Positions 1-60,280 of a DNA stretch of 64,000 nucleotides are shown one piece after another. The position numbers and the translations under genes are program-made. This DNA comes from Ryuthela nishihirai (lineage: Eukaryota > Arthropoda > Arachnida > Araneae > Heptathelidae). Position 1 is the first letter of the stretch. Every line of letters begins with the position of its first letter. The notes below the pieces were generated by a model. The model was not told the DNA's origin. It did no database searches and saw only the letters and a program-made list of their open reading frames with translations. The stretch covers positions 44,054,135 through 44,118,134 of the forward strand of contig JAWZYU010000010.1 in assembly GCA_038380435.1 (NCBI GenBank), read 5' to 3'.

Positions 1-108
1 ATGAATGACATTAAAAGTCAAAATAATGACTTGAAAGCCGATATGGCTACACAGATGAATGACATTAAAAGTCAAAGTAATGACTTGAAAGCCGAAATGG
101 CCGCACAA
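1..108 (+). repeat. 54-bp tandem duplication in the gag-like coiled coil
   Basis: Two 54-bp units (1-54, 55-108) encode near-identical 18-residue segments beginning MNDIKSQ; weaker NELRTE/DDLKAE/AEMRAE units follow, giving an extended heptad/hendecad-like helix. Confidence 0.85.
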
Positions 109-2733
109 AATAATGAGTTGAGAACGGAGATAGTTTCTCAAAAAGATGATTTGAAAGCCGAAATAGCGGCACAAAATGCTGAGATGAGAGCTGAAGTGGC
201 TTCTCAAGTTGGTAAGATTATTGATCAGTTCAAGGATAGTAAAACCGAACTCAATAGACAATGCAATAGTTTAAATGTTGAATTTGTCAGTGAAAAAGGT
301 GATCTTGATAGTGTTAAGTTAGATTGTAAACATGGAAAAGAAAAAGAGAAAGGCAACGCATATAAAAATGTGGATCTGCTACTGAAAATCAAGAATCGTA
401 GAGATAGCGCAGATAATGCCTTTGACCACGCAACTACTGGTGATGCATGGCAGAGTGTCTATGTCGCTGGTGACATGTCTAGGAACTGTGAAGAACAATC
501 ACACAGATCAGAGAGCTGTGAGACTATACAGTACGCTTTGCACTTCAAAATACCTAGGTATACAAGTCTGGCACGATCTGAAGAGAGATCCACACGAAAG
601 GTATTCTATTCCTCGCCGTCAGCAAAATGTGTCATGGACAATTATCGCAAAGGCAGAGTAACGAGTGGTAATGAGGGGGAACGAAACAGAGTTTACGTTT
701 CGCAGAGTGGTCCGAGTAAAGAAGAGGCGTCCATTCATCATAGATACAAAGTGCCCTTCGTCGTTACCGCGGAAGTCGGAGAGATTTTTCCGAAGCATAT
801 AGCCACACTCGAATCGTTTATAGAAAGTGGGGATTTAAGGAAGAGGAATTCCGAAGGATGGCTTAGAAGCATAACAGGTGATGCTAGTAAAAGAGCTTCA
901 GGCAGAGACAGTACTTCAAAGACTAACTTTCTGGATGAAACTAAGCCTCAGAGTTACGATCAGAGAGAAGTGAATCCCTCAGATAATTTCAACGTAGCCA
1001 CGCTGAATTTCTTTTCTGAACAGTCAATGTGCAGATTTGGACATTATAACCATTTAGATTATAAGGATATAGAAAAGTTTTATCACGATTACAATGAGAG
1101 CTCCAAGAAGGTGAATTCGGAAGAAACAGCAACTATGACCTCCTCGGGTCATGTGTTTTGCTGGAGACCCGAGTGGCGCCATCGGATGGTGGATAAACAC
1201 AACACAAGAGGTGTCAGCGACAAAGTGAGTCTTGTCTTGGCTCCTGCACTTGCTGCTTTAGGTCTCAAGGTCCCTATGATCTCCGGTCGTGCTCGCCAAT
1301 TGACGGGAGATACTCTGGACAAATTGGAATCCATCCCTGGCTTCACAGTCGACTGCACTAAAGATAAAATCGAGCAGATGAGGGAAGACGTCGGATGCTG
1401 CATCGTAGGACAGAGAGTGGAGCTGGTGCCAACAGATAAGGAGATTTACCGCTGCAAGGATCTGACGGCTACCGTAGATAGCGTTCCTCTAATGAGATGC
1501 TCAATTGTGTCCAAAAAGCTGGCTGAAGGAGTGTGCGCTTTGGTTTATGATGTTGAATTCGGAAAAGGAGCTATTGATCTCATCAGTACAGAAGATGTTG
1601 CTGTTGATTTAGTTAAGAAAATGGTTACAGCATCACAAACTCGTGGAATGAAGAGTTTGAGTTGTTCAGCTGTTATCAGCAACATGGATTCACCTCTTGA
1701 AAACTCTGTTGACAACTCTCTGGAAGTGATGGAAGCTGTTCAGTGTTTCCTTGGTAACGGATCCTTGGAACTGCAAGAGCTCGTCGAAGAGTTAGAAGGA
1801 GAACTTCTGCGTTTTGTGAACATTGTGGATAATAGGGTAGATGAAGCATCACGTGTCCGTAAGGTTCTGCATAACGGCAATGCTTTGAACAAGTTTCGTA
1901 ACATGTTAATAGAACAAGGAGTATCTGAAGATGTTGCAAGCTGGCTATGTGAAGGTAAAACAGAAAAAATATTGCTAGCAGCCCGACACATCACTGATTT
2001 CACTTATACAGGAGAAACAGGTAAGGTTGTCGGATTAGAAGCTGCAGTTCTAGCAAGAGTATGGAAGGAGGAGATGGACCGAAGAGCTAAAAAGAATTAT
2101 GGAGCTGATATTATATTTGTGAAGCACCTTGGGGATCAAATTGAATCAGGTGAAATATGGCTGAAGGTTCATCACGACAGTTCTGAATTAAGTGAAAGTC
2201 AACTGACAAAAGGGTCAGACTGGAGGATGAAACTCCTCCCTAGATTTTATGTCACTAATGACTTTCATTCCTTGTTACTGTTGATAGAAGTAAAAATCCA
2301 AAGAAGAAAACTTTCGACAAAGAAGAAAACTTTTTACAGGTTTTGCACGAAAACTCTTAGTCGATTCTTCTCCCTGCGGAGACATAAACATGTTCACAAG
2401 GGCTATAGGCCTTACACGTATTATATTTGTGGACGAGGCTTCAGTCAGAAAAGAAATCTAAGTCATAATGAGATTCGCTTTCATTTTGACACAGACGTGG
2501 AATATCGCATTCGTCGACGTCCAGCTACAAAGAGCAAGGTGGTTCACGTGGATCGTTTGACCCCGTTTCATCGAAGAACTGAAGAAACTTTGGAATCCAG
2601 AATTGTTCGGGACGAACAAGACCTAGGAAGGGGGCAGTGTTACGACAGAAGGAATCTGGCAACCGAAAGCAAAAAGTTTCAGCCAACGAATAAGAACGTT
2701 GGGAGAATTTGGAGAAGGAGAGTGGAGCGTTAA
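1..2733 (+). CDS. Chimeric retroelement ORF: gag-like coiled coil, thymidine phosphorylase-like domain, integrase tail
   Basis: Uninterrupted 910-codon frame open at the window edge, so the true start may lie upstream. Residues 1-110 are a K/E/Q-rich coiled coil resembling arthropod gypsy gag. Residues about 111-370 are unrecognised. Residues about 375-737 match the alpha/beta domain of animal thymidine phosphorylase, which phosphorolyses thymidine: VDKHNTRGVSDKVSLVLAPA, then DKLESIPGF, then TATVDSVPL, then SKKLAEG. The family's N-terminal helical domain is absent. Residues about 795-830 hold a one-cysteine zinc-finger relic (CGRGFSQKRNL). Residues 835-860 (RRPATKSKVVHVDRLTPF) are the Ty3/gypsy integrase C-terminal tail. 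The stop lies 11 nt before an LTR. Key residues differ from active enzymes: S86, one glycine and R171 of the E. coli enzyme correspond to N401, R403 and K486, while H400, S501 and K505 remain. I infer a non-autonomous LTR element carrying an intronless captured phosphorylase. Enzymatic activity is doubtful. Confidence 0.75.
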   Translation: MNDIKSQNNDLKADMATQMNDIKSQSNDLKAEMAAQNNELRTEIVSQKDDLKAEIAAQNAEMRAEVASQVGKIIDQFKDSKTELNRQCNSLNVEFVSEKGDLDSVKLDCKHGKEKEKGNAYKNVDLLLKIKNRRDSADNAFDHATTGDAWQSVYVAGDMSRNCEEQSHRSESCETIQYALHFKIPRYTSLARSEERSTRKVFYSSPSAKCVMDNYRKGRVTSGNEGERNRVYVSQSGPSKEEASIHHRYKVPFVVTAEVGEIFPKHIATLESFIESGDLRKRNSEGWLRSITGDASKRASGRDSTSKTNFLDETKPQSYDQREVNPSDNFNVATLNFFSEQSMCRFGHYNHLDYKDIEKFYHDYNESSKKVNSEETATMTSSGHVFCWRPEWRHRMVDKHNTRGVSDKVSLVLAPALAALGLKVPMISGRARQLTGDTLDKLESIPGFTVDCTKDKIEQMREDVGCCIVGQRVELVPTDKEIYRCKDLTATVDSVPLMRCSIVSKKLAEGVCALVYDVEFGKGAIDLISTEDVAVDLVKKMVTASQTRGMKSLSCSAVISNMDSPLENSVDNSLEVMEAVQCFLGNGSLELQELVEELEGELLRFVNIVDNRVDEASRVRKVLHNGNALNKFRNMLIEQGVSEDVASWLCEGKTEKILLAARHITDFTYTGETGKVVGLEAAVLARVWKEEMDRRAKKNYGADIIFVKHLGDQIESGEIWLKVHHDSSELSESQLTKGSDWRMKLLPRFYVTNDFHSLLLLIEVKIQRRKLSTKKKTFYRFCTKTLSRFFSLRRHKHVHKGYRPYTYYICGRGFSQKRNLSHNEIRFHFDTDVEYRIRRRPATKSKVVHVDRLTPFHRRTEETLESRIVRDEQDLGRGQCYDRRNLATESKKFQPTNKNVGRIWRRRVER

Positions 2734-2744
2734 CGGTCGTTGTG

Positions 2745-3264
2745 TGTTGTAACGGTCGGTGAGTTCGAAAATGGCCGGTGGGCTGTTCTGAGACAGTGCG
2801 CGTTAAGTATCAAGAAGTAACTTGATGTGTTGTGTATACGCGGAAGGATAAAAGTGGGATCTTTTATCGTTAAGTATCAAGAAGTAACTTGATGTGTTGT
2901 GTATACACGGAAGTATAAAAGTGGGAACTTTTATGGCTAACTTCGAATGTCTACACGGACTGTCTTTTTGTTCGGCTAGTGTGTGAACAGTTATTAGCAC
3001 AGGACGAGAATTGGTTTACGAGTGAAGATCTTCGGGTGACCTGGTGAATCAAGTAAAAGGTAGTATTTTAGTAAAATACACAGAGCTGATATTGTGTGCT
3101 CTATGCAGGAAGATTGATGACTTGTGCATGTTAATAGTTGATTTGTTAATAAGATACTTCATCCATATTTCCTTTGTAACAATTTACCTTGTATTGAATT
3201 TGGTTTTGAAATATAGCTTTTAATACTCACGCTCAGCGGCTATCCATTTTTGTGATCCGCAACA
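2745..3264 (+). mobile_element. 3' LTR of the chimeric retroelement
   Basis: Begins TGTTG and ends CAACA, a perfect 5-bp inverted repeat typical of LTR ends, 11 nt after the stop codon of the integrase-tailed ORF. A purine-rich stretch (about 2701-2728) just upstream is the candidate polypurine tract. The 5' LTR would be left of the window, so LTR identity, insertion age and the target duplication cannot be read here. Exact ends are inferred from the inverted repeat only. Confidence 0.6.
2801..2934 (+). promoter_or_regulatory. Duplicated 67-bp U3 segment with TATA-like boxes
   Basis: Units 2801-2867 and 2868-2934 are near-identical and each ends with a TATA-like motif (GGATAAAAG, AGTATAAAAG), so the putative LTR promoter is doubled. 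Tandem U3 duplications are a known way LTR elements change promoter strength; function here is inference. Confidence 0.55.
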
Positions 3265-3414
3265 ATATTTTGACTAGCAAACAATATCCTTCTTCCTGGT
3301 CAATTGTGAATTTAATTTTCATACTTAAACCTAATAAACCAGCAGAAGAATTAAAGTCAATATAGACCAGTATCTCTCGCTTCTAATGTTCTTAAAATTT
3401 TTGAAAAATTAATT

Positions 3415-3867
3415 TTGAAAAGACTTCTGTGGTTTCTTGATGAAAAAAATATCATCTTTGATTATTTACATGGATTTAGAAGAGGTAGGTCAATTATAGA
3501 TTGTCTAATTCATCTTGTTGGAGATGTTAACAATGCTTTTCACCACAAAAAGACAGTGGTTGCAATTTATTTTGACCTTACAGATGCTTTTGACTCAGTA
3601 TGGATTACTGATCTTTTATACAAACTTAGTAAAATAGGGAAGTCTAGATATATTACTCCTTTATTAAGTTTTACCATACTAATAAGTGCTATCAGGTTAA
3701 ACTTCATAATGTTTACTCAAATAAACTTAAAATGCATAGTGGAATTTAACAGGGAGGTATTTTATCGCCCACACTTTTTAATATATATCTTTATGATCTA
3801 CCTGAATCTATTAATAAAAATGTTAGCTATTCAATTTATGCTGATGACCTTACCCTATGGGCAATAG
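3415..3867 (+). pseudogene. LINE reverse transcriptase fragment
   Basis: Open frame of 150 codons with RT finger/palm motifs, including FDLTDAFDSVW with the first catalytic aspartates. It runs out of frame before the YADD motif, which is present about 3835-3850 in another frame. Not a functional gene. Confidence 0.75.
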
Positions 3868-4149
3868 AAAAAGAATACAAAGATATGACAAAAACACTTC
3901 AAGAAGCAGTCAAAAACATTCATTTCTACTCTGACAAAGGGCACTTGAAAATAAGTGCAGAGAAGTCATTAGACCTTTTGTTAGGACTAAAGCTGTTATT
4001 CCTCAACTGAATGTTTATCTTTATCATGGCTTGTTGCCTAATGCAGATCAACGTAAGTGTTTAGGAGTAATCTTTGACTCCAGACTCAAATGGGATAAAC
4101 ATTTACAAAAAGTTTATACGACTGGAAATAAACTCTTTAATTTTGACAA

Positions 4150-5145
4150 ATGCTTAGTAACTACAAGTTAGGGATGCTCTTCAACAAATCTCTTTATCTT
4201 TATAAAAATTTCGTTAGACCAAAGTTGGAGTATGGTCTTGGTTTGTTGGTGGGAATACCAGACTATAAATTTAAGAAAGTAAATATCTTGCAAAATAAGT
4301 TTATTAGACTTGCTTCGGGCTTATTGAGAAGTACCGCAAATCTTTCTCTTTTGGCAGAAACAAATCTGCCAATTTTTGAAATTAGAGCAAAATTTTTGTT
4401 CATTAAGGATTATACAAGGTTACAGCTCAAACTTAAAGAACATTTTTTAATAAGGAAGATTATAGAAAAGAATTACGACTTTTGTGCTCTTAATATATTA
4501 AAGAAAGACTTTTATTTTTGTCAAATTTTGGAAATTAAAAATAAAGGTGATTTATATACAAAAGATCGTATTTGGACTTTGAAGTGTCCAAGTATTAAAG
4601 AAAGTATTCCTAATATAATAAAAAAAAGTGATATGGATCAAAAAGTCTTAAAGATTATAACTGAATCCTTCGTTGATAATGACTATGACGATATTTTACA
4701 GACATTTACTGATGGGGCTTACTTCCCCAGCGAAAGTATTTCTACAGCTGCTTTTGACATACCAGCCAAAAATGTTTTTGAACGATTTCAGTTTTCAGCA
4801 GATGCTATTATTTTGCAGGCTGAATTGTTTCCCATATACAAGGCAATTACAGGGGTTGAAATAAATTTACTTAATGAAAATGTGGTGTTGTTAACAGATT
4901 CCAAGGCAGCCTTGTTGGCCTTAGAAGATTATATTCATTATAAGATCATACTAGATAGTTTTAAAATATACATTAAATCCGTAATAAAAGGAAATCATAT
5001 TTTTCTTCAATGGTTGCCTAGCCACTGTGGAGTGGCAGGCAATGATAATGTGGACAAAATATCTAAGGATGCTATTAATTTAGAAGCATCTACAACTTTA
5101 TTTTTATTTCTCATATGTCTTAAAAGGAAAAATAAAGAAAAATAA
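4150..5145 (+). pseudogene. LINE RT C-terminus and RNase H domain
   Basis: 331-codon frame. Residues 1-70 carry the RT thumb signature (VRPKLEYG, KFIRLASG). Residues about 185-325 carry RNase H motifs in order: FTDGAY (D), QAELF (E), LLTDSKAAL (D), LQWLPSHCGVAGND and a terminal D. The four acidic residues look intact although the element is broken by a frameshift upstream and a stop downstream. Confidence 0.8.
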
Positions 5146-5567
5146 ATTCAAGGACTAAATATATATTTCAAATTTCATGCTCTAATTAATAGTAACTTTA
5201 GATATTATCTTGATGAAAATACTTCATTTTTTAAGCAATATAATTTCAGTAGACAAGGTATTAGTAAAATCATAAGGCTGCGTATAGGTACTGCTGCAAT
5301 TAATAACTACCTTTTTAAAATCAAGAAGAACCAGTCCGATTTGTGTAAAATCTGTTAAGTTAAAGAGACTGTTTCCCATGTGTTGCTAAATTGTGAAAAG
5401 TATGATGAAGCCAGAAAAAACTTTTTTGAAGCACTTCGTTACAAATACAATCTAACTGAATATATGTTACCGCTAAAGTGCAGAAATCAGTTATTCTACA
5501 TATTATCTAGGTATTGTGCAGATTAACTAGGGTGATCCGTTAACGTGCGGAAAATTGTTTCATTCCT

Positions 5568-5622
5568 CAAATTACCTAGGTAATCTGCAAATTACCTGGA
5601 TAATCTGCACATTACCTACTAG
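5568..5622. repeat. Short tandem repeat of an ATTACCTAGGTAATCTGCA-like unit
   Basis: Three imperfect units around a CCTAGG palindrome. The same motif recurs at 6010 and 6070, so these belong to one small-element family. Confidence 0.6.
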
Positions 5623-5768
5623 GCACTCGTTAAAGTGAAAATAAGATCTTTGCTGGAACAACAGGAACGTTTCTGTACGCTTAAATTAACATAATGTTAT
5701 TTATCTAGTGTCCGAGAGTAGAGTTGAAACCAGGGTCATCCCTCTGTCAACATGAATCAGTCGTCCGA

Positions 5769-5900
5769 ATTATAAAAAACGCCCCCAAAATTAGCAGGCC
5801 AAGTGAGAACGAATCATTTTAGTGATTCGTTATCAAGAATGAATCACTTTACCGATTCGTTCTCACTTGGCCTCCGCTCATCCGGGGCGTTTTTTATAAT
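5769..5900. repeat. 132-bp nested palindrome (foldback/MITE-like)
   Basis: Outer arms 5769-5785 and 5884-5900 are perfect 17-bp inverted repeats (ATTATAAAAAACGCCCC and complement). Inner arms start GGCCAAGTGAGAACGAATC at 5797 and end in its complement at 5872, and the loop is itself partly palindromic. It could extrude as a cruciform. Confidence 0.85.
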
Positions 5901-5990
5901 GAGGACGAGTGAATCACGTGACACGAAGATTCATATTCAAGAGATTCACCACTATGAGAGAAACAAACTTTTGAACTTTAACGATACGGA

Positions 5991-6095
5991 AGCCGTTAAT
6001 GTGCACATTACCTAGGTAAAATGCGGAAAACACTTGATTCCGCACTTCAACGGAGCAAATCAGCAGATTAGCTAGGTAATGTGCACATTAACGGC
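5991..6095. repeat. Inverted repeat with 26-bp arms
   Basis: Arms 5991-6016 and 6070-6095 are complementary at 25 of 26 positions (core TTAATGTGCACATTACCTAG). The spacer carries a second palindrome (TGCGGAAAACACTTGATTCCGCA-like). Probably a MITE end or solo foldback. Confidence 0.75.
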
Positions 6096-6112
6096 TTTCG
6101 AGTTTTAGCGGT

Positions 6113-6500
6113 TGGGTTGGGTTGTTTTACCTCTGAGCGGCACTTTTTTGCACACCATGGGCTAAATGGCCAGGTCACATGGACCCCGAAGGCTCAGAGA
6201 AGGTTGGGGGAGGGGACCCACTGGAACAGCTGTTGGGAGACAGATGTTAGCCTCCCGTCAAGGCCATCCAGCGTGTTCTTTAACGTGCACAGGGTATGGC
6301 TCTCCAGCACACGGGGCCACGGCTTAACGTCCCATCCGACGGACGGCGGCCTTTCCAAGCCCATCGGTGTCCCCTACTGACCGTGGGCAGGGCGGGGAAT
6401 TTTGCGGAGTAAATCTCAACGCTGACCCAGCTGGGACTCGAACCTGGGAAGTACAGATTACGAGCCTGGCGCGCTACCAACTGAGCCACCCCCGCCCCCA
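6113..6500 (-). mobile_element. SINE family A copy, full length
   Basis: tRNA-like head at the right end (A box TGGCTCAGTTGG and B box GGTTCGAGTCC on the minus strand), conserved GC-rich middle, tail GTAAAACAACCCAACC. Flanked by 9-bp duplications TTTAGCGGT (6104-6112, 6503-6511). Long open frames on both strands are family-wide by-products. Confidence 0.9.
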
Positions 6501-8979: not shown

Positions 8980-9365
8980 TGAGGGGAGGGGGTGGCTCAG
9001 TCGGTAGCGCGCCAGGCTCGTAATCTGTAGTTCCCAGGTTCGAGTCCCAGCTGGGTCAGCGTTGTGATTTATCTCCGCAAAATTCCCCGCCCTGCCCACG
9101 GTCAGTAGGGGACACCGATGGGCTTGGAAAGACCGCCGTCCGTCGGATGGGACGTTAAGCCGTGGCCCCGTGTGCTGGAGAGCCATACCCTGTGCACGTT
9201 AAAGAACACGCTGGATGGCCTTGACGGGAGGCTACCATCTGTCTCCCAACAGCTCTTCCAGTGGGTCCCCTCCCCCAACCTTCTCTGAGCCTTCGGGGTC
9301 CATGTGACCTGGCCATTTAGCCCATGGTATGCAAAAAAGTGCCGCTCAGAGGTAAAACAACCCAA
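8980..9365 (+). mobile_element. SINE family A copy, full length (reference copy)
   Basis: 386 bp with a perfect 12-bp target duplication CCCGTTGTACTC (8968-8979, 9366-9377). Head reads GTGGCTCAGTCGGTAGCGCG...CTCGTAA...GGTTCGAGTCCC; the anticodon loop CTCGTAA and flanks resemble elongator tRNA-Met with CGT in place of CAT. The 3' end is CAACCCAACC, not poly-A. The middle, with GATGGGACGTTAAGCC and GTGCACGTTAAAGAACACG, recalls widely conserved metazoan SINE domains (possibly Nin), from memory. Confidence 0.95.
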
Positions 9366-9377
9366 CCCGTTGTACTC

Positions 9378-15290: not shown

Positions 15291-15479
15291 GATGGATCTA
15301 TACGTGATATTTTATAGTTGGTTTTCAAGGCAAGCAATTTATGACTTATATTTTCCACGAGGCCCTAATTTAGAAAGAAATAAAAGGGGAGGGGGGAGAA
15401 AGACCCGATCGAGCCATAAAAACTTAAGCGTGTGGGGAAGGAGGTATGAGACTGGACTTCCTTCTCAGGAAAGCGTTTT

Positions 15480-15940
15480 CCTCTCCGTTTTCATTTCTCA
15501 AAGGGGGGAAGGCGGGTTGGTTCCCTTGACCCCTGTATCCGGCCCTGTTGTCCAGAAACGAGGGGGGGAAGGCGGGTTGGTTACCTTGACCCCTGTATCC
15601 GGCCCTGTTGTCCAGAAACAAGGGGGGGGGGAAGGCGGGTTGGTTCCCTTCCTTCTCAGGAAAGCGTTTTCCTCTCCGTTTTCATTTCTCAAAGGGGGGA
15701 AGGCGGGTTGGTTCCCTTGACCCCTGTATCCGGCCCTGTTGTCCAGAAATGAGGGGGGAAGGCGAGTTGGTTCCCTTGACCCCTGTATTCGGCCCTGTTG
15801 TCCAGAAACGAGGGGGGGGGGAAGGCGGGTTGGTTCCCTTGACCCCTGTATCCGGCCCTGTTGTCCAGAAACGAGGGGGGGGGAAGGCGGGTTGGTTCCC
15901 TTGACCCCTGTATCTGGCCCTGTTGTCCAGAAACGACCTT
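15480..15940. repeat. GC-rich minisatellite of about 60-bp units
   Basis: About seven units of AAGGCGGGTTGGTTCCCTTG...CCTGTTGTCCAGAAACGA separated by variable G runs (6-10). A second module (CCTTCTCAGGAAAGCGTTTT...) occurs twice, at about 15458 and 15650, so the array has a two-module pattern. Long frames are repeat artefacts. Confidence 0.9.
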
Positions 15941-27618: not shown

Positions 27619-28004
27619 GGGGGGCGGGGGTGGCTCAGTCGGTAGCGCGCCAGGCTCGTAATCTGTAGTTTCCAGGTTCGAGTCCCAGCTGGGTCAGCGT
27701 TGAGATTTATCTCCGCAAAATTCTCCGCCTTGCCCACGGTCAGTAAGGGACACCGATGGGCTTGGAAAGGCCGCCGTCCGTTGGATGGGACGTTAAGCCG
27801 TGGCTCCGTGTGTGGGAGAGCCATACCCTGTGCACGTTAAAGAACACGCTGGATGGCCTTGATGGGAGGCTACCATCTGTCTCCCAACAGCTGTTCCAGT
27901 GGGTCCCCTCCCCCAACCTTCTCTGAGCCTTCGGGGTCCATGTGACCTGGCCATTTAGCCCATGGTGTGCAAAAAAGTGCCGCTCAGAGGTAAAGCAACC
28001 CAAC
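27619..28004 (+). mobile_element. SINE family A copy
   Basis: Full length with 10-bp duplication CCTGCACATT (27609-27618, 28005-28014). Confidence 0.92.
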
Positions 28005-28005
28005 C

Positions 28006-28092
28006 CTGCACATTAGGCCACGGCTAAACTGCACATTAGGCCACGGCTACACATTAGGCCACGGCTAAAATGCACATTAGGCCACGGCCTAA
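28006..28092. repeat. 23-bp minisatellite beginning at a SINE target duplication
   Basis: Four units of TGCACATTAGGCCACGGCTA; the first overlaps the right-hand target duplication. A C homopolymer run (about 28107-28122) follows. Confidence 0.85.
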
Positions 28093-37094: not shown

Positions 37095-37800
37095 TTTGCT
37101 TGCTTTAAAATAAAAATTAATCTAAAAAATTTTCAAAATTCATATTTTCCTATATGCGCCCTAAAATGTAGAAAAGAAACCTCAAGTATATATCGATCAG
37201 TCACTGGGTTCGTTCGTATTCACTTCAAAGGAAGATAGGGCGCTGGTAATCTTGTTGAGTAGGTAAATCAGCGCCTATCTTCCTTCGACGTGAATACGAA
37301 TTCATTGACTGATTGCACCATCGATATGCTTTAGGGTGGGGCGGGGGTGGCTCAGTCGGTAGCGCGCCAGGCTCGAAATCTGTAGTTCCCAGGTTCGAGT
37401 CCCAGCTGGGTCAGCGTTGAGATTTATCTCCGCAAAATTCCCCGCCCTGCCCACGGTCAGTAGGGGACACCGATGGGCTTGGAAAGGCCGCCGTCCGTCG
37501 GATGGGACGTTAAGCCGTGGCCCCGTGTGCGGGAGAGCCATACCCTGTGCACGTTAAAGAACACGCTGAATGGCCTTGACGGGAGGCTACCATCTGTCTC
37601 CCAACAGCTGTTGCAGTGGGTCCCCTCCCCCGACCTTCTCTGAGCCTTCGGGGTCCATGTGACCTGGCCATTTAGCCCATGGTGTGCAAAAAAGTGCCGC
37701 TCAGAGGTAAAAACAACCCAACAATGCTTTAGGGTTCTTTCCTACATTTTAGGGCGCACATGGAAAGGCAGTTTTTTAAAAAAATTTTAATTAATTTATT
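37095..37800. repeat. Large inverted repeat (about 150-bp arms) with a SINE in the right arm
   Basis: Left arm about 37095-37240, right arm about 37250-37337 continued at 37724-37790. GCGCCCTAAAATGTAG and GGAAGATAGG...GCGCTG are mirrored. The SINE at 37338-37723 inserted after the palindrome formed. Confidence 0.8.
37338..37723 (+). mobile_element. SINE family A copy, near consensus
   Basis: 386 bp, perfect 12-bp duplication ATGCTTTAGGGT (37326-37337, 37724-37735). Confidence 0.95.
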
Positions 37801-39785: not shown

Positions 39786-39994
39786 TCGTGCACCTGTGCC
39801 AAATGTGATGGGCTTGGCCAAATGTCATGGCTGCCGGAGGACGATGAATTAGTCATTTGATAACCTTCACCTTTATTTCGGTGAAATCACAGGTTCGCGG
39901 TTGTTACACCCATACCGACGTATGACTCAGATTTGCTGCGCCAAGTGATGTACAGAAATATGTCCAAAAATTCATGCACGAGAGTTGTATAAGG

Positions 39995-40379
39995 GTTGGG
40001 TTGTTTTACCTTTGAGCGGCACTTTTTTGCACACCATGGGCTGAATGGCCAGGTCACATGGACCCCGAAGGCTCAGAGAAGGTTGGGGGAGGGGACCCAC
40101 TGGAAGAGCTGTTGGGAGACAGATGGTAGCCTCCCGTCAAGGCCATCCAGCGTGTTCTTTAACGTGCACAGGGTATGACTCTCCCGCACACGGGGCCACG
40201 TCTTAACGTCCCATCCGACGGACGGCGGCCTTTCCAAGCCCATCGGTGTCCCCTACTGACCGTGGCAGGGCGGGGAATTTTTGCGGAGATAAATCTCAAC
40301 GCTGACCCAGCTGGGACTCGAACTTGGGAACTAGAGATTACGAGCCTGGCGCGCTACCGACTGAGCCACCCCCGCCCCA
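39995..40379 (-). mobile_element. SINE family A copy, near consensus
   Basis: Perfect 14-bp duplication AGAGTTGTATAAGG (39981-39994, 40380-40393). Confidence 0.95.
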
Positions 40380-40603
40380 AGAGTTGTATAAGGACCACAT
40401 AGTTTATTCGTACTATATACAATCAGGTACTGGGGATGCGCTAGACTCCGTAGGCCTTTGCTGCTGCAAACAATTATACAATGAGGTGGAGAACAGCACT
40501 TTGCAGATTCTCGCTTTAACGACCTCAAACTGGGCGAAAGGATATCTAATCTTTGTCTACACTGTGGTTCACGCAGAACTGTATTTGATTCAACAAGAAT
40601 CTT

Positions 40604-52209: not shown

Positions 52210-53067
52210 AAATGGTAGCTAGGTAGTCACTGGAAGGAGAGCTATGCACCAATCCCCTGTGATGGTGCATAGAACCGGCCAGGCCTAGCACCTAATGTCC
52301 GACCCCGCCTTCTCGTGGTGCAGATCGTTAGTACCTTTCAAAAGAGATACTCTCTTGTGGAAGTGAACGGAAGGCGAGGGCTGCCAGATTAGTGTGGCCT
52401 AATGATCTGGACAACTATGGCTACTTTTCTTTTTTTCTACCCTGCTGAGGAGTGGTCAACCACACAGGGTCCTGGTGCTGACCATATAAACCCACTGGAC
52501 TGGACAGATATATGGCTCTGAGCTTGATTATGGATCCTGATTTTGCTGCACTGGTGGGCTTCTGTGGAGAGAAAATCTTCCGCTGTGTTTTCTGTTTGTT
52601 TGTGGGTTGACAGCCCCAAGTGAATAGATTCACAGGATATGTTTATCAGCTGGTGGATAAACCTGAGCAGAGGTCATCGCAGGCACCTGAACTCTTTGCT
52701 TCTATTGGCATCATCAAATTCTACATTGGAGGAAGTCTTCCAGTGTAGATAGCTTCAGCCTTTAGTGGTGGAGGAACGGGTCTTTGTCCCATGTCTGCGA
52801 TTAGGGGGCTGTTTGATATTGTCGGCATTCCCTCTCTCAATAAACATAGTTTCTTTAAACATCCCACTAACCATTTTCTCTCCATAGGTAGTTGGAATGT
52901 GAGGACTCTGCACAGAGTTTTTCTCTTGATGTACTCACACAAGAATTCCACGATTATAATTTATTCTTGGCTTGTAAGAGACCAGATGGACAGATAAAGG
53001 TCAGATTCTTAAAAAAAATCGTAAATTTCTCTTTTCAGGAAGGGACGACAATAAGCATCACAAAGGC

Positions 53068-53610
53068 GTGGGTCTGCTTCTCAGCAGACACGCTAGTGAA
53101 GCTCTTCTAGGATATGAGTGCATTAATGAAAGGTTTCTTACAGCAAAATTTCAGACAAGCGTTAAAGACTTGAATGTTATCTGCTGTTATGCCCCCACTG
53201 AGGATGACGATGAGGATGAGAAGGATAGGTTTTATGAACAACTTCAGGATATTTTGAATTCTGTGAAGAAAGGAGATATTACCCTTGTTCTTGGTGACTT
53301 CAATGCCAAAGTTGGTACTGACTCTGACCTTTGGGGAGGAGTAATAGGTCCTTTTGGTATTGGTAGCTGCAATGGCAATGGGCAACGTCTCCTACAGGTA
53401 AGTAAACTCAATGGATTCAGAATAACTAACACTTATTACAAACACCGCGACATACATAAGTACACATGGGATTCACCTGATGGGCTGCATAAGAATATGA
53501 TTGATTATATACTAATTAACAGCAAATGGACTAGTTCTGTTAGGAATACCAGGGCATATAGGGGAGCTGAAATTGCATCTGACCATTACCTTGTTAAAAG
53601 TGTCTTGTAA
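53068..53610 (+). pseudogene. LINE endonuclease domain
   Basis: 180-codon frame of the apurinic-like endonuclease with GDFNAKVG, DYILIN and SDHYLV motifs (catalytic N, D and SDH present). The N-terminal part lies in another frame upstream. Confidence 0.85.
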
Positions 53611-53667
53611 CTTAAACTTAAAGAGTGTTGTGCTAGGGTTAAAAAATTTACTTTTAATACTGACACT

Positions 53668-54579
53668 TTGAAAGACCCAGTTATTGCCAAAGCTTACCAT
53701 GATAGGTTACTTACTCATTATGACAGTCATGGTATGCTTACTACTGAAGTTGAGGAAGAATGGAATCATTTTAAACAGGCTTTTATGGACACTAACAGTA
53801 CTCTTTTAGGAATAAAGGTGCAGATGAGGCAGAATTATCTGAGTCAATACCCTACTAGTCCTAATAGAAAGCACTACAGAGAACTTAATAAACGTGTAAA
53901 GGATCAGTTAGCTGCTGATAAGAATCTTTGGCTTGATGGTTTGGCTGATAAAGTCGAGGAAGCAGTTAGACAGCACAACAGCAGAGAGCTGTACCAGATA
54001 GTTAATGTTTTGTGTGGTAGAAAACGGACAGGCATACAAGGATTGAAGGACAAACAAGGTAAGGTTATAGAAGGGGAGGATTCTGTCATGACTAGGTGGG
54101 CTGAGCATTTCAGTGATGTTCTAAACAATGTGGTTAGTTCTACTCCCATTGTTTGTAATGATGATAGATGCATTGGCAGCTTTAATGTTGGCCCTATAAC
54201 ACAATCTGAAGTTATTTTGGCTGTTTCTAAACTTAAACTACATAAATCCCCAGGGGTAGATGAAATTACTACCGTGATGCTTAGAGCTGGGAATGTTTCG
54301 GTTACCATTTGGATGACTGAAATTCTGAATATCTTTTATGATAAAAGCATGGTTCCTAAGGATTTTACCAGAGCTATTGTTATCCCTATTTTCAAAAAAG
54401 TTGATTGCAGTTCTTGTGATAACTATAGGGGTATCAGCCTACTCTCTGTTCCAGGTAAAGTTCTTTCCATGATTGTGCTTAATAGAATTAAGAATCTGGT
54501 TGACAGTCAATTGCGTCATGAGCAATGTGGATTCAGAAGTGGTAGGGGATGTGTGGATCAGATATTTTCACTTAGGTAG
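53668..54579 (+). pseudogene. LINE reverse transcriptase, N-terminal half
   Basis: 303 codons up to CGFRSGRGCVDQIFSLR followed by TAG at 54577; RT motifs 0-2 are present. Confidence 0.87.
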
Positions 54580-54612
54580 ATTCTTGGGAAATGTTTAGAG
54601 TTTCAGAAACCT

Positions 54613-55329
54613 TTGATTGCTAGCTTTGTTGATTTCAAAAAGGCTTTCGACTCTGTTGATCGTCATAATTTGTGGTTGATTGTGAGCTCATATGGTATAC
54701 CTGACAAGTTAGTTAACATAATGAAAGCTCTCTATAATAACACTGAGTCGTGTGTGAGAGTTGGTAAGGCTTGTAGCAATTGGTTTAGCATTACTTCTGG
54801 TGTTCGAAAAGGGTGCATTTTGTATTCTTTTCTCTTTAGCTTGGTTATTGATTATGTTATGCGAAATTCACTTCAAGGGAAAGATTTTGGCCTTAAATGG
54901 ACTGGAGATACGAAAATTTCTGATTTAGATTATGCTGATGATTTAACCCTTTTGGCAAATGATGTTGATGAGATGAACTCTTTCATTCGAGCTGTTGATG
55001 AGACTGGTAATAGAGTAGGTTTGGTTATAAACAGAGAGAAAACTAAAGTGATGAAAATTGGTCAGGCAGGCTGTGATTCAGTTAATCTTAATGGTTGTAG
55101 CTTTGAGCAGGTGTCACAGTTTAATTATCTTGGGAGCTATGTAACAGATAATGGTAATGTGCGGCATGAGATTAACAGACGAATAGGGATTGCTGCCGGG
55201 ACTTTTAAGAATCTATGGAGAGTGTGGAGAAATAGGCGTATACACCTAAAGACTAAAATTAGACGGTATAATAGTTTGGATCTTTCTAGGGTTAGTTGTG
55301 GTAGTGAAACCTGGACACTTTGTAAATAA
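54613..55329 (+). pseudogene. LINE reverse transcriptase, palm and thumb
   Basis: 238 codons with SFVDFKKAFDSVD and LDYADDLTLLA (catalytic D and DD intact), ending CGSETWTLCK before a stop; the LINE continues at 55378-55623. Confidence 0.9.
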
Positions 55330-58110: not shown

Positions 58111-60280
58111 TAAAAACCACAGTTCAGTTCTAGGACGTGTAAGTTACAATTCATTACCATAATTATGACCGACTAAACCACAGCTCATCCATAGGATGTG
58201 TAAGCTACAATTCATTACCATAATTATGACCGACTAAACCACAGCTCATCCATAGGATGTGTAAGCTACAATTCATTACCATAATTATGACCGACTAAAC
58301 CACAGCTCATTCATAGGATGTGTAAGCTACAATTCATTACCATAATTATGACCGACTAAACCACAGCTCATTCATAGGATGTGTAAGCTACAATTCATTA
58401 CCATAATTATGACCGACTAAACCACAGCTCATTCATAGGATGTGTAAGCTACAATTCATTACCATAATTATGACCGACTAAACCACAGCTCATTCATAGG
58501 ATGTGTAAGCTACAATTCATTACCATAATTATGACCGACTAAACCACAGCTCATTCATAGGTTGTGTAAGCTACAATTCATTACTATAATTATGACCGAC
58601 TAAACCACAGCTCATTCATAGGATGTGTAAGCTACAATTCATTACCATAATTATTACCGACTAAACCACAGCTCATTCATAGGATGTGTAAGCTACAATT
58701 CATTACCATAATTATGACCGACTAAACCACAGCTCATTCATAGGATGTGTAAGCTACAATTCATTACCATAATTATGACCGACTAAACCACAGCTCATTC
58801 ATAGGATGTGTAAGCTACAATTCATTACCATAATTATGACCGACTAAACCACAGCTCATTCATAGGATGTGTAAGCTACAATTCATTACCATAATTATGA
58901 CCGACTAAACCACAGCTCATCCATAGGATGTGTAAGCTACAATTCATTACCATAATTATGACCGACTAAACCACAGCTCATTCATAGGATGTGTAAGCTA
59001 CAATTCATTACCATAATTATGACCGACTAAACCACAGCTCATTCATAGGTTGTGTAAGCTACAATTCATTACCATAATTATGACCGACTAAACCACAGCT
59101 CATTCATAGGATGTGTAAGCTACAATTCATTACCATAATTATGACCGACTAAACCACAGCTCATTCATAGGATGTGTAAGCTACAATTCATTACCATAAT
59201 TATGACCGACTAAACCACAGCTCATTCATAGGATGTGTAAGCTACAATTCATTACCATAATTATGACCGACTAAACCACAGCTCATCCATAGGATGTGTA
59301 AGCTACAATTCATTACCATAATTATGACCGACTAAACCACAGCTCATTCATAGGATGTGTAAGCTACAATTCATTACCATAATTATGACCGACTAAACCA
59401 CAGCTCATTCATAGGTTGTGTAAGCTACAATTCATTACCATAATTATGACCGACTAAACCACAGCTCATTCATAGGATGTGTAAGCTACAATTCATTACC
59501 ATAATTACGACCGACTAAACCACAGCTCATTCATAGGATGTGTAAGCTACAATTCATTACCATAATTACGACCGACTAACCCACAGCTCATTCATAGGAT
59601 GTGTAAGCTACAATTCATTACCATAATTATGACCGACTAAACCACAGCTCATTCATAGGATGTGTAAGCTACAATTCATTACCATAATTATGACCGACTA
59701 AACCACAGCTCATTCATAGGATGTGTAAGCTACAATTCATTACCATAATTATGACCGACTAAACCACAGCTCATTCATAGGATGTGTAAGCTACAATTCA
59801 TTACCATAATTATGACCGACTAAACCACAGCTCATTCATAGGATGTGTAAGCTACAATTCATTACTATAATTATGACCGACTAAACCACAGCTCATTCAT
59901 AGGATGTGTAAGCTACAATTCATTACCATAATTATTACCGACTAAACCACAGCTCATTCATAGGATGTGTAAGCTACAATTCATTACCATAATTATGACC
60001 GACTAAACCACAGCTCATTCATAGGATGTGTAAGCTACAATTCATTACCATAATTATGACCGACAAAACCACAGCTCATTCATAGGATGTGTAAGCTACA
60101 ATTCATTACCATAATTATGACCGACTAAACCACAGCTCATTCATAGGATGTGTAAGCTACAATTCATTACCATAATTATGACCGACTAAACCACAACTCA
60201 TTCATAGGATGTGTAAGCTACAATTCATTACCATAATTATGACCGACTAAACCACAGCTCATTCATAGGATGTGTAAGCC
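58111..60280. repeat. 61-bp satellite array, about 36 copies
   Basis: Unit CCACAGCTCATTCATAGGAT...AAGCTACAATTCATTACCAT...GACCGACTAAA, period exactly 61, about 98% identity inside and diverged at both edges. Variants (CATCC/CATTC, GGTTG/GGATG, TATTACC/TATGACC, TACGACC) show higher-order order: 366-bp spacing (six units) in 58919-59420, and a 1281-bp offset (21 units) between 58581 and 59862. 61 is not a multiple of 3 and stops occur, so non-coding. Confidence 0.98.

Follow-up and report, generated by a model that had tools for sequence, protein, structure and literature searches.

The left end of a 64,000-nt stretch of the spider Ryuthela nishihirai genome (Araneae, Heptathelidae; GenBank assembly GCA_038380435.1, contig JAWZYU010000010.1, positions 44,054,135 to 44,118,134), hereafter the window, is occupied by a long terminal repeat (LTR) retroelement whose single reading frame contains a thymidine phosphorylase (TP) domain. 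This copy of the TP element is one of many in a young Ty3/gypsy family that is non-autonomous. As the best explanation, which we hold to be quite probable, a chelicerate-like TP transcript was acquired by LTR-mediated transduction, the chimera was amplified in trans, and its frame has been kept for translation or packaging and not for TP chemistry. Transduction into a retroelement is supported by a sister element, L073, which lacks the insert. In the same data the frame appears protected and the TP residues do not, and the TP part is predicted to be a passenger or a pseudoenzyme, not a working phosphorylase.

Within the window the frame (1-2730) is open across 910 codons and terminates inside the 3′ LTR, at 2731. 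Dinucleotide shuffles did not produce such a frame (55.6 stops expected, minimum 32 in 2000 shuffles). The full frame starts 126 nt left of the window (MPLTRSMDEL) and has a total of 952 amino acids, leading from a coiled coil through a segment without protein match, the TP domain, a degenerate C2H2 zinc-finger stretch and a gypsy integrase tail into the LTR. The copy is laid out as follows:

1-343, forward strand: Gag-derived N-terminal part, a coiled coil of 11-residue repeats with the same start as the L073 Gag.
344-1116, forward strand: segment read as captured, open in frame and predicted to be mostly disordered, with no blastn match in L073 and no protein match.
1117-2214, forward strand: intron-free thymidine phosphorylase domain read as captured, residues 373-738, catalytic motifs degraded.
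2215-2493, forward strand: linker read as captured, with a degenerate C2H2 zinc-finger remnant (approximately residues 775-822).
2494-2637, forward strand: integrase C-terminal tail (Integrase_p58_C) and polypurine tract aggaagggggcag, 96.5% with L073.
2638-3264, forward strand: 3′ LTR, TGTTAC...CAACA, 627 bp, with an internal 67-bp tandem duplication, identical to the 5′ LTR.
3265-3268, no strand: target-site duplication ATAT, 4 bp, found also left of the 5′ LTR.

An initial annotation of this DNA had described one 910-codon frame with an intron-free TP domain between a gag-like start and a Ty3/gypsy integrase tail followed by an LTR, lacking reverse transcriptase (RT), ribonuclease H (RNase H) and protease, and most of this description was borne out. 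One correction concerns the extent of the gag-like start. Alignment with L073 (68% with gaps for the window copy, internal positions 1-499) limits the Gag-derived stretch to residues 1 to ~114, while residues 115-372 gave no match in the protein database or in L073; residues 1-372 as a whole had no protein-database match either. In the AlphaFold2 model a helix spans residues 2-90 of the Gag part, and the predicted local distance difference test score is below 50 across most of residues 92-358 in the middle segment. The number and order of the coiled-coil repeats vary widely among the Gag parts of L009-L048 and relative to L073. For the integrase tail, Integrase_p58_C scored 28.0 bits with the piece 2473-2730 (cut-off 27) and 24.1 bits, below the cut-off, with the whole frame; its identity was settled by the match to L073. 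RT, RNase H and protease were absent from the domain scan of the window copy, and the TP element is therefore non-autonomous. For the fused architecture, none of the 46 protein-database matches listed (at least 7993 candidates scored) is annotated with a gag or integrase domain, and an IMG/VR search gave none that was confirmed.

Extension to the left, which had been proposed together with a search for further copies, recovered the 5′ LTR 783 to 157 nt left of the window (G000:C10:44053352-44053978), with 0/627 differences from the 3′ LTR. The primer-binding-site-like TTGGTGTCAGRAGYGGGAT adjoins it (CAGCAG in L034 and L039), and the sequence right after the 5′ LTR reads TTTGGTGTCAG..., a primer binding site which we take to match the 3′ end of tRNA-Leu. 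The genome (3.11 Gb, 1680 contigs) was then searched with the TP domain. Among 2546 candidates, 112 matches of 95-100% identity were scored, 112/112 without internal stops, by a scoring that favours intact copies. From the list of these 112 best matches the first 42 were taken and two, on contigs C917 and C269, left out. The resulting set of 40 copies includes the window copy; as it was picked from the best TP matches, its TP part is biased towards intactness.

The same architecture recurs throughout this set. Paired LTRs beginning with TG and ending with CA flank all 40 fetched copies, which are spread over many contigs, and a polypurine tract precedes the 3′ LTR. No substitution separates the paired LTRs in 27 copies, one in 7, two in 5 and eight in 1, a comparison in which a few pairs have gaps or are partial and the LTRs of L013, L020, L023 and L040 are interrupted or mis-bounded. 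Matching 4-bp flanks were found for 37/40 copies (36 by script, and L023 after its boundary was reread); L041 and L044 have differing flanks, and L040 could not be judged. ATAT is the commonest flank, and the target choice may be sequence-specific. In L034 and L042, which lie on different contigs, the printed flanking bases are identical on both sides, as if both occupied the same site of another repeat. A start of the form MP(L/F)TRSMDEL soon after the 5′ LTR, with a frame into the 3′ LTR, is present in 31/40 copies. Four further fetched loci (L049-L052) have the same LTR and internal architecture; the frame is complete in L051 and L052, and L049 is a tandem of the form LTR-internal-LTR-internal-LTR.

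The sister element L073 was recovered with a query of 86 nt of leader and Gag start drawn from TP copies. This search gave 40 identical matches out of 1127 candidates, all 40 on contigs C1-C5. For 20 of the 40, with three already on the TP list excluded, the 1-kb downstream pieces were read (the leader-matched sample); 19/20 contained TP sequence and one, L073, contained gag-pol sequence. Among the 19, L061 stays open over the piece read although a large deletion has removed its later TP part; for L070, alignment to the window stops 40 nt early. L073 has LTRs at 84-729 and 5686-6329, which are 99.69% alike and flanked by ATAT. Its gag frame (761-1996) carries a CCHC knuckle, and its pol frame (1972-5778) encodes protease, RT, RNase H, H2C2, integrase core and p58 tail, in the Ty3/gypsy order.

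Comparison of the two elements defines the limits of the capture. When set against the LTRs of two TP-element copies, L009 and L035, those of L073 are 95-98% identical. The leader and Gag start are common to both elements (68-81%, with gaps in the coiled-coil repeats), as are the last 144 nt before the 3′ LTR (96.5-97.2%). Between the Gag start and these last 144 internal nt, blastn of L073 against the TP element gave no match, and for this reason window positions 344-2493 are taken as the captured part. In L073 gag and pol lie in different frames, whereas the TP element reads from the Gag start to the pol end in a single one. The middle segment was also considered as decayed Gag plus protease, a candidate that was dropped: it has no blastn match in L073, and its best score against the L073 proteins (16.9 bits) was no better than chance (mean of shuffles, 17.5). 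A LINE-type (long interspersed nuclear element) insertion of TP marked by direct repeats, suggested by a 10-mer at 933 and 2225, was dropped as a chance match.

The identity of the TP domain is clear. It matched PF00591 (2.8e-28) and the sequence of the human TP structure (6e-73), and a profile of eight chelicerate or chelicerate-like TPs scored 435 bits across residues 373-738. The nearest named proteins are chelicerate TPs with 44-48% identity, followed by those of other animals with 41-46%. In the phylogenetic tree the domain groups with horseshoe-crab and spider-like TPs (100/97) and stands beside the horseshoe crabs (93/73), on the longest end branch and with its exact placement unsure. 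AlphaFold2, supplied with cellular TPs as the alignment, predicted a confident TP fold (TM 0.77 by target versus human TP). The N-terminal alpha domain was not detectable before residue 373 in the window copy, which has lost ~99 nt in frame near the TP start (~1088-1106) that are present in leader-matched copies; in 17/19 of the latter the TP profile alignment reaches model position 17-18, as a weak match.

The catalytic state of the domain is a different matter. In the window copy 13/74 near-invariant TP columns are changed, versus 0-3 in the 19 other TPs compared. Seven changes at positions that hardly vary in other TPs (P389R, R486K, K519E, G567E, G571D, L583F and G703D) are fixed in 40/40 copies, and R486 presumably corresponds to human R202. 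The phosphate loop KHSTGGVGDK is intact in 1/40 copies and in 0/19 leader-matched copies; SIVSKK is retained in 38/40. Because the catalytic motifs are degraded and the residues drift, a role of the captured TP in the deoxynucleoside triphosphate (dNTP) pool is unlikely, and the suggestion in the initial annotation that a working dNTP-pool gene is carried is not supported. We also considered APOBEC-like hypermutation, as 9 of the 13 changes at near-invariant positions look G to A. This was not robust and was dropped: in simulations of the G-to-A count among 31 changes at 80% conserved columns, P was 0.005 when mutation was taken as unbiased and 0.05 under a twofold GC-to-AT bias, and it reached 0.24 and 0.40 once transitions were made more frequent as well as bias applied.

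To compare indels and variants, the window was set against 42 copies (the 40 minus the window copy, plus L050-L052, the tandem L049 excluded). For the frame, counts were taken from the mid and tail pieces, which the search query did not cover, and from the leader-matched sample; they replace an early frame-decay simulation on the window copy alone, which had suggested protection. A change was called shared when at least two copies differ from the window, which includes sites where the window copy is the odd one, and the definitions of shared and single vary slightly between comparisons. In the mid and tail pieces the copies share 87 substitutions and neither a frameshift-size indel nor a nonsense change; the copy-specific changes there include three frameshifts and two nonsense changes. 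In the LTR, the same copies have 36 shared substitutions and 13 shared frameshift-size indels. The difference in such indels between frame pieces and LTR (0 vs 13) is significant by the Fisher test at 5e-7, all 13 counted. The leader-matched TP copies (19/19) stay open through all 333 codons that were read and have no frameshift-size indels, and none of the 81 distinct TP substitutions in this sample is a stop.

Taken together, these results are consistent with the following course of events. An autonomous L073-type element would have kept its Gag N-terminus and the 144 internal nt that adjoin the 3′ LTR, and lost all that lay between them. It would have gained ~2.15 kb of foreign sequence, including the coding sequence of a chelicerate-like TP in spliced form; the most likely route is template switching while RNA was being reverse-transcribed (LTR-mediated retroposition). 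The RNA of the TP element would then be copied and integrated in trans by L073-type enzymes. The fusion protein would be translated, and its Gag coiled coil may co-assemble with the partner Gag. Translation or packaging in cis could shield the frame; alternatively, protection may come from escape from the decay of prematurely stopped RNA. A frame that is protected while the TP residues are not agrees with a requirement to translate through the RNA and not with one for phosphorylase activity, and the open frame of L061 despite its partial TP loss agrees with it as well.

Several observations weigh against this interpretation. The donor TP gene was not found: a TP N-domain query from the protein database gave none at E ≤ 1e-3, which proves little, as the exons may be too short or divergent. 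Of the initial proposal that a host gene was transduced, the transduction is supported by L073, which lacks the insert, and this host's own TP gene is a candidate donor. Mobilisation in trans is suggested by the shared LTR and leader, and transcription and translation of the element are predicted here from the genome sequence. The LTR used as a control holds easily shifting repeats, with 9/13 indels in the pile-up stretches ~2739-2772 and 3066-3104; one of these nine, at 3066 (40/42 rows), is possibly private to the window copy. Three of the other four hit the last frame codons within the LTR, which leaves the extreme C-terminus unprotected. Nine of the 40 copies are without a complete frame (broken, or lacking the usual start), both units of L049, which stands outside the indel count, exit the frame near the tail, and L050 has no usual start. 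Amino-acid constraint among shared variants is not significant, at 0.73 (mid), 1.33 (TP) and 0.75 (tail) of neutral, and for this reason protection appears to be limited to the frame. In the TP-selected sample, TP changes specific to one copy gave 0.53 (P 0.025) and pairwise ratios were ~0.7, both biased by that way of selecting copies.

The broken frames would also be expected if the insert were an inert passenger, its frame open only through youth and descent from a few intact masters. The 27/40 LTR pairs without substitution, the free drift of the TP residues and the nearly even differences by codon position in TP (30/23/32) agree with this explanation. Yet in the same copies the LTR has 13 frameshift-size indels in common (12 if that at 3066 is private) alongside its 36 shared substitutions, and the frame outside the searched piece has none alongside 87, nor did a stop arise among the TP substitutions of the leader-matched sample; we therefore regard a pure passenger as unlikely. 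A somewhat different role for the dead TP is conceivable and is put forward tentatively: it could serve a chimeric Gag as a functional component, structurally or in RNA packaging, and co-assembly of the translated chimera with the partner Gag would let the element outcompete its autonomous parent. TP elements outnumber the L073 type 19 to 1 in the leader-matched sample, for which the query came from TP copies. A working phosphorylase that shifts nucleotide pools and so aids reverse transcription could point to the confidently predicted fold and the retained SIVSKK, but is very improbable given the seven positions altered in every copy, the broken phosphate loop, the excess of changed near-invariant columns over other TPs and the absence of amino-acid constraint among shared variants. 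Finally, the joining of several unrelated pieces in one frame might suggest a mosaic of nested insertions or misassembly with no family behind it. With LTR pairs in 40/40 copies on many contigs and target duplications in 37/40, this has practically no probability; the copies and LTRs exclude each of the objections that the initial annotation had raised in advance, namely no other copy, no 5′ LTR, misassembly and nested insertions.

Directly after the 3′ LTR the window holds a non-LTR (LINE-like) element in decay, in which remnants of RT and RNase H were recognised (3266-5145). Because it begins there, the TP element probably sits inside it, with continuity judged by eye. Other repeats in the window are:

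6114-6500, 8983-9368, 37338-37722, 27620-28006, 39993-40381 and others: ~385-bp interspersed repeat, 12 copies within the 64 kb (itself included) at at least 91% identity over at least 340 bp, some with pseudo-frames.
15457-15936: tandem array with periods of 62 and 191 bp.
52978-55329: another non-LTR element, assigned by eye, whose frames resemble endonuclease and RT.
58114-60279: satellite with a 61-bp unit, 35.5 copies, 98% matches.

The closest known system is Bs1 of maize, reportedly treated by Elrouby and Bureau in 2001 and 2010. Bs1 is not known to carry RT. According to the available part of a published account, this LTR retroelement transduced three host gene segments into a chimeric frame (PMC13317346). 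Like Bs1, the TP element is a non-autonomous LTR element that holds an intron-free gene sequence in frame with Gag; unlike the TP element, Bs1 resides in a plant and took up three different host genes. Terminal-repeat retrotransposons with GAG (TR-GAG) are non-autonomous LTR elements with a Gag-derived frame that are mobilised in trans; these are plant elements that are not known to carry a captured host enzyme. LTR-mediated retroposition in metazoans is said to have been described by Tan et al. In the available part of a review, template switching between element RNA and host mRNA gives LTR-flanked gene copies able to move again (PMC5408686). That part does not describe what is found here, an amplified family that has a single fused frame and whose partner element is identified. 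LTR elements of bdelloid rotifers carry a captured third open reading frame (ORF3) with dUTPase, GDSL esterase or DEDDy exonuclease domains, as far as the accessible text goes (PMC5408684). There the captures are additional to gag and pol, whereas the TP insert stands in place of most of gag-pol and appears to be catalytically inactive. The available part of a further paper describes host genes of a rotifer that are framed by Penelope elements (PMC3846280). No published account of TP in a retroelement was found by title or abstract start among the open-licence papers listed.

Reviews, in their available parts, mostly report host-gene transduction by non-retroviral LTR elements as low-copy events. 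With a young amplified family and a sister element of near-identical LTRs and leader in one animal genome, it can be studied directly where the capture begins and ends, which element is the partner and what became of the captured gene. The contrast between a protected frame and drifting residues makes it testable why non-autonomous elements keep their frames. If the reading of the element as a chimeric Gag is true, TP would act in a retroelement as a pseudoenzyme, with a part in structure or in RNA packaging.

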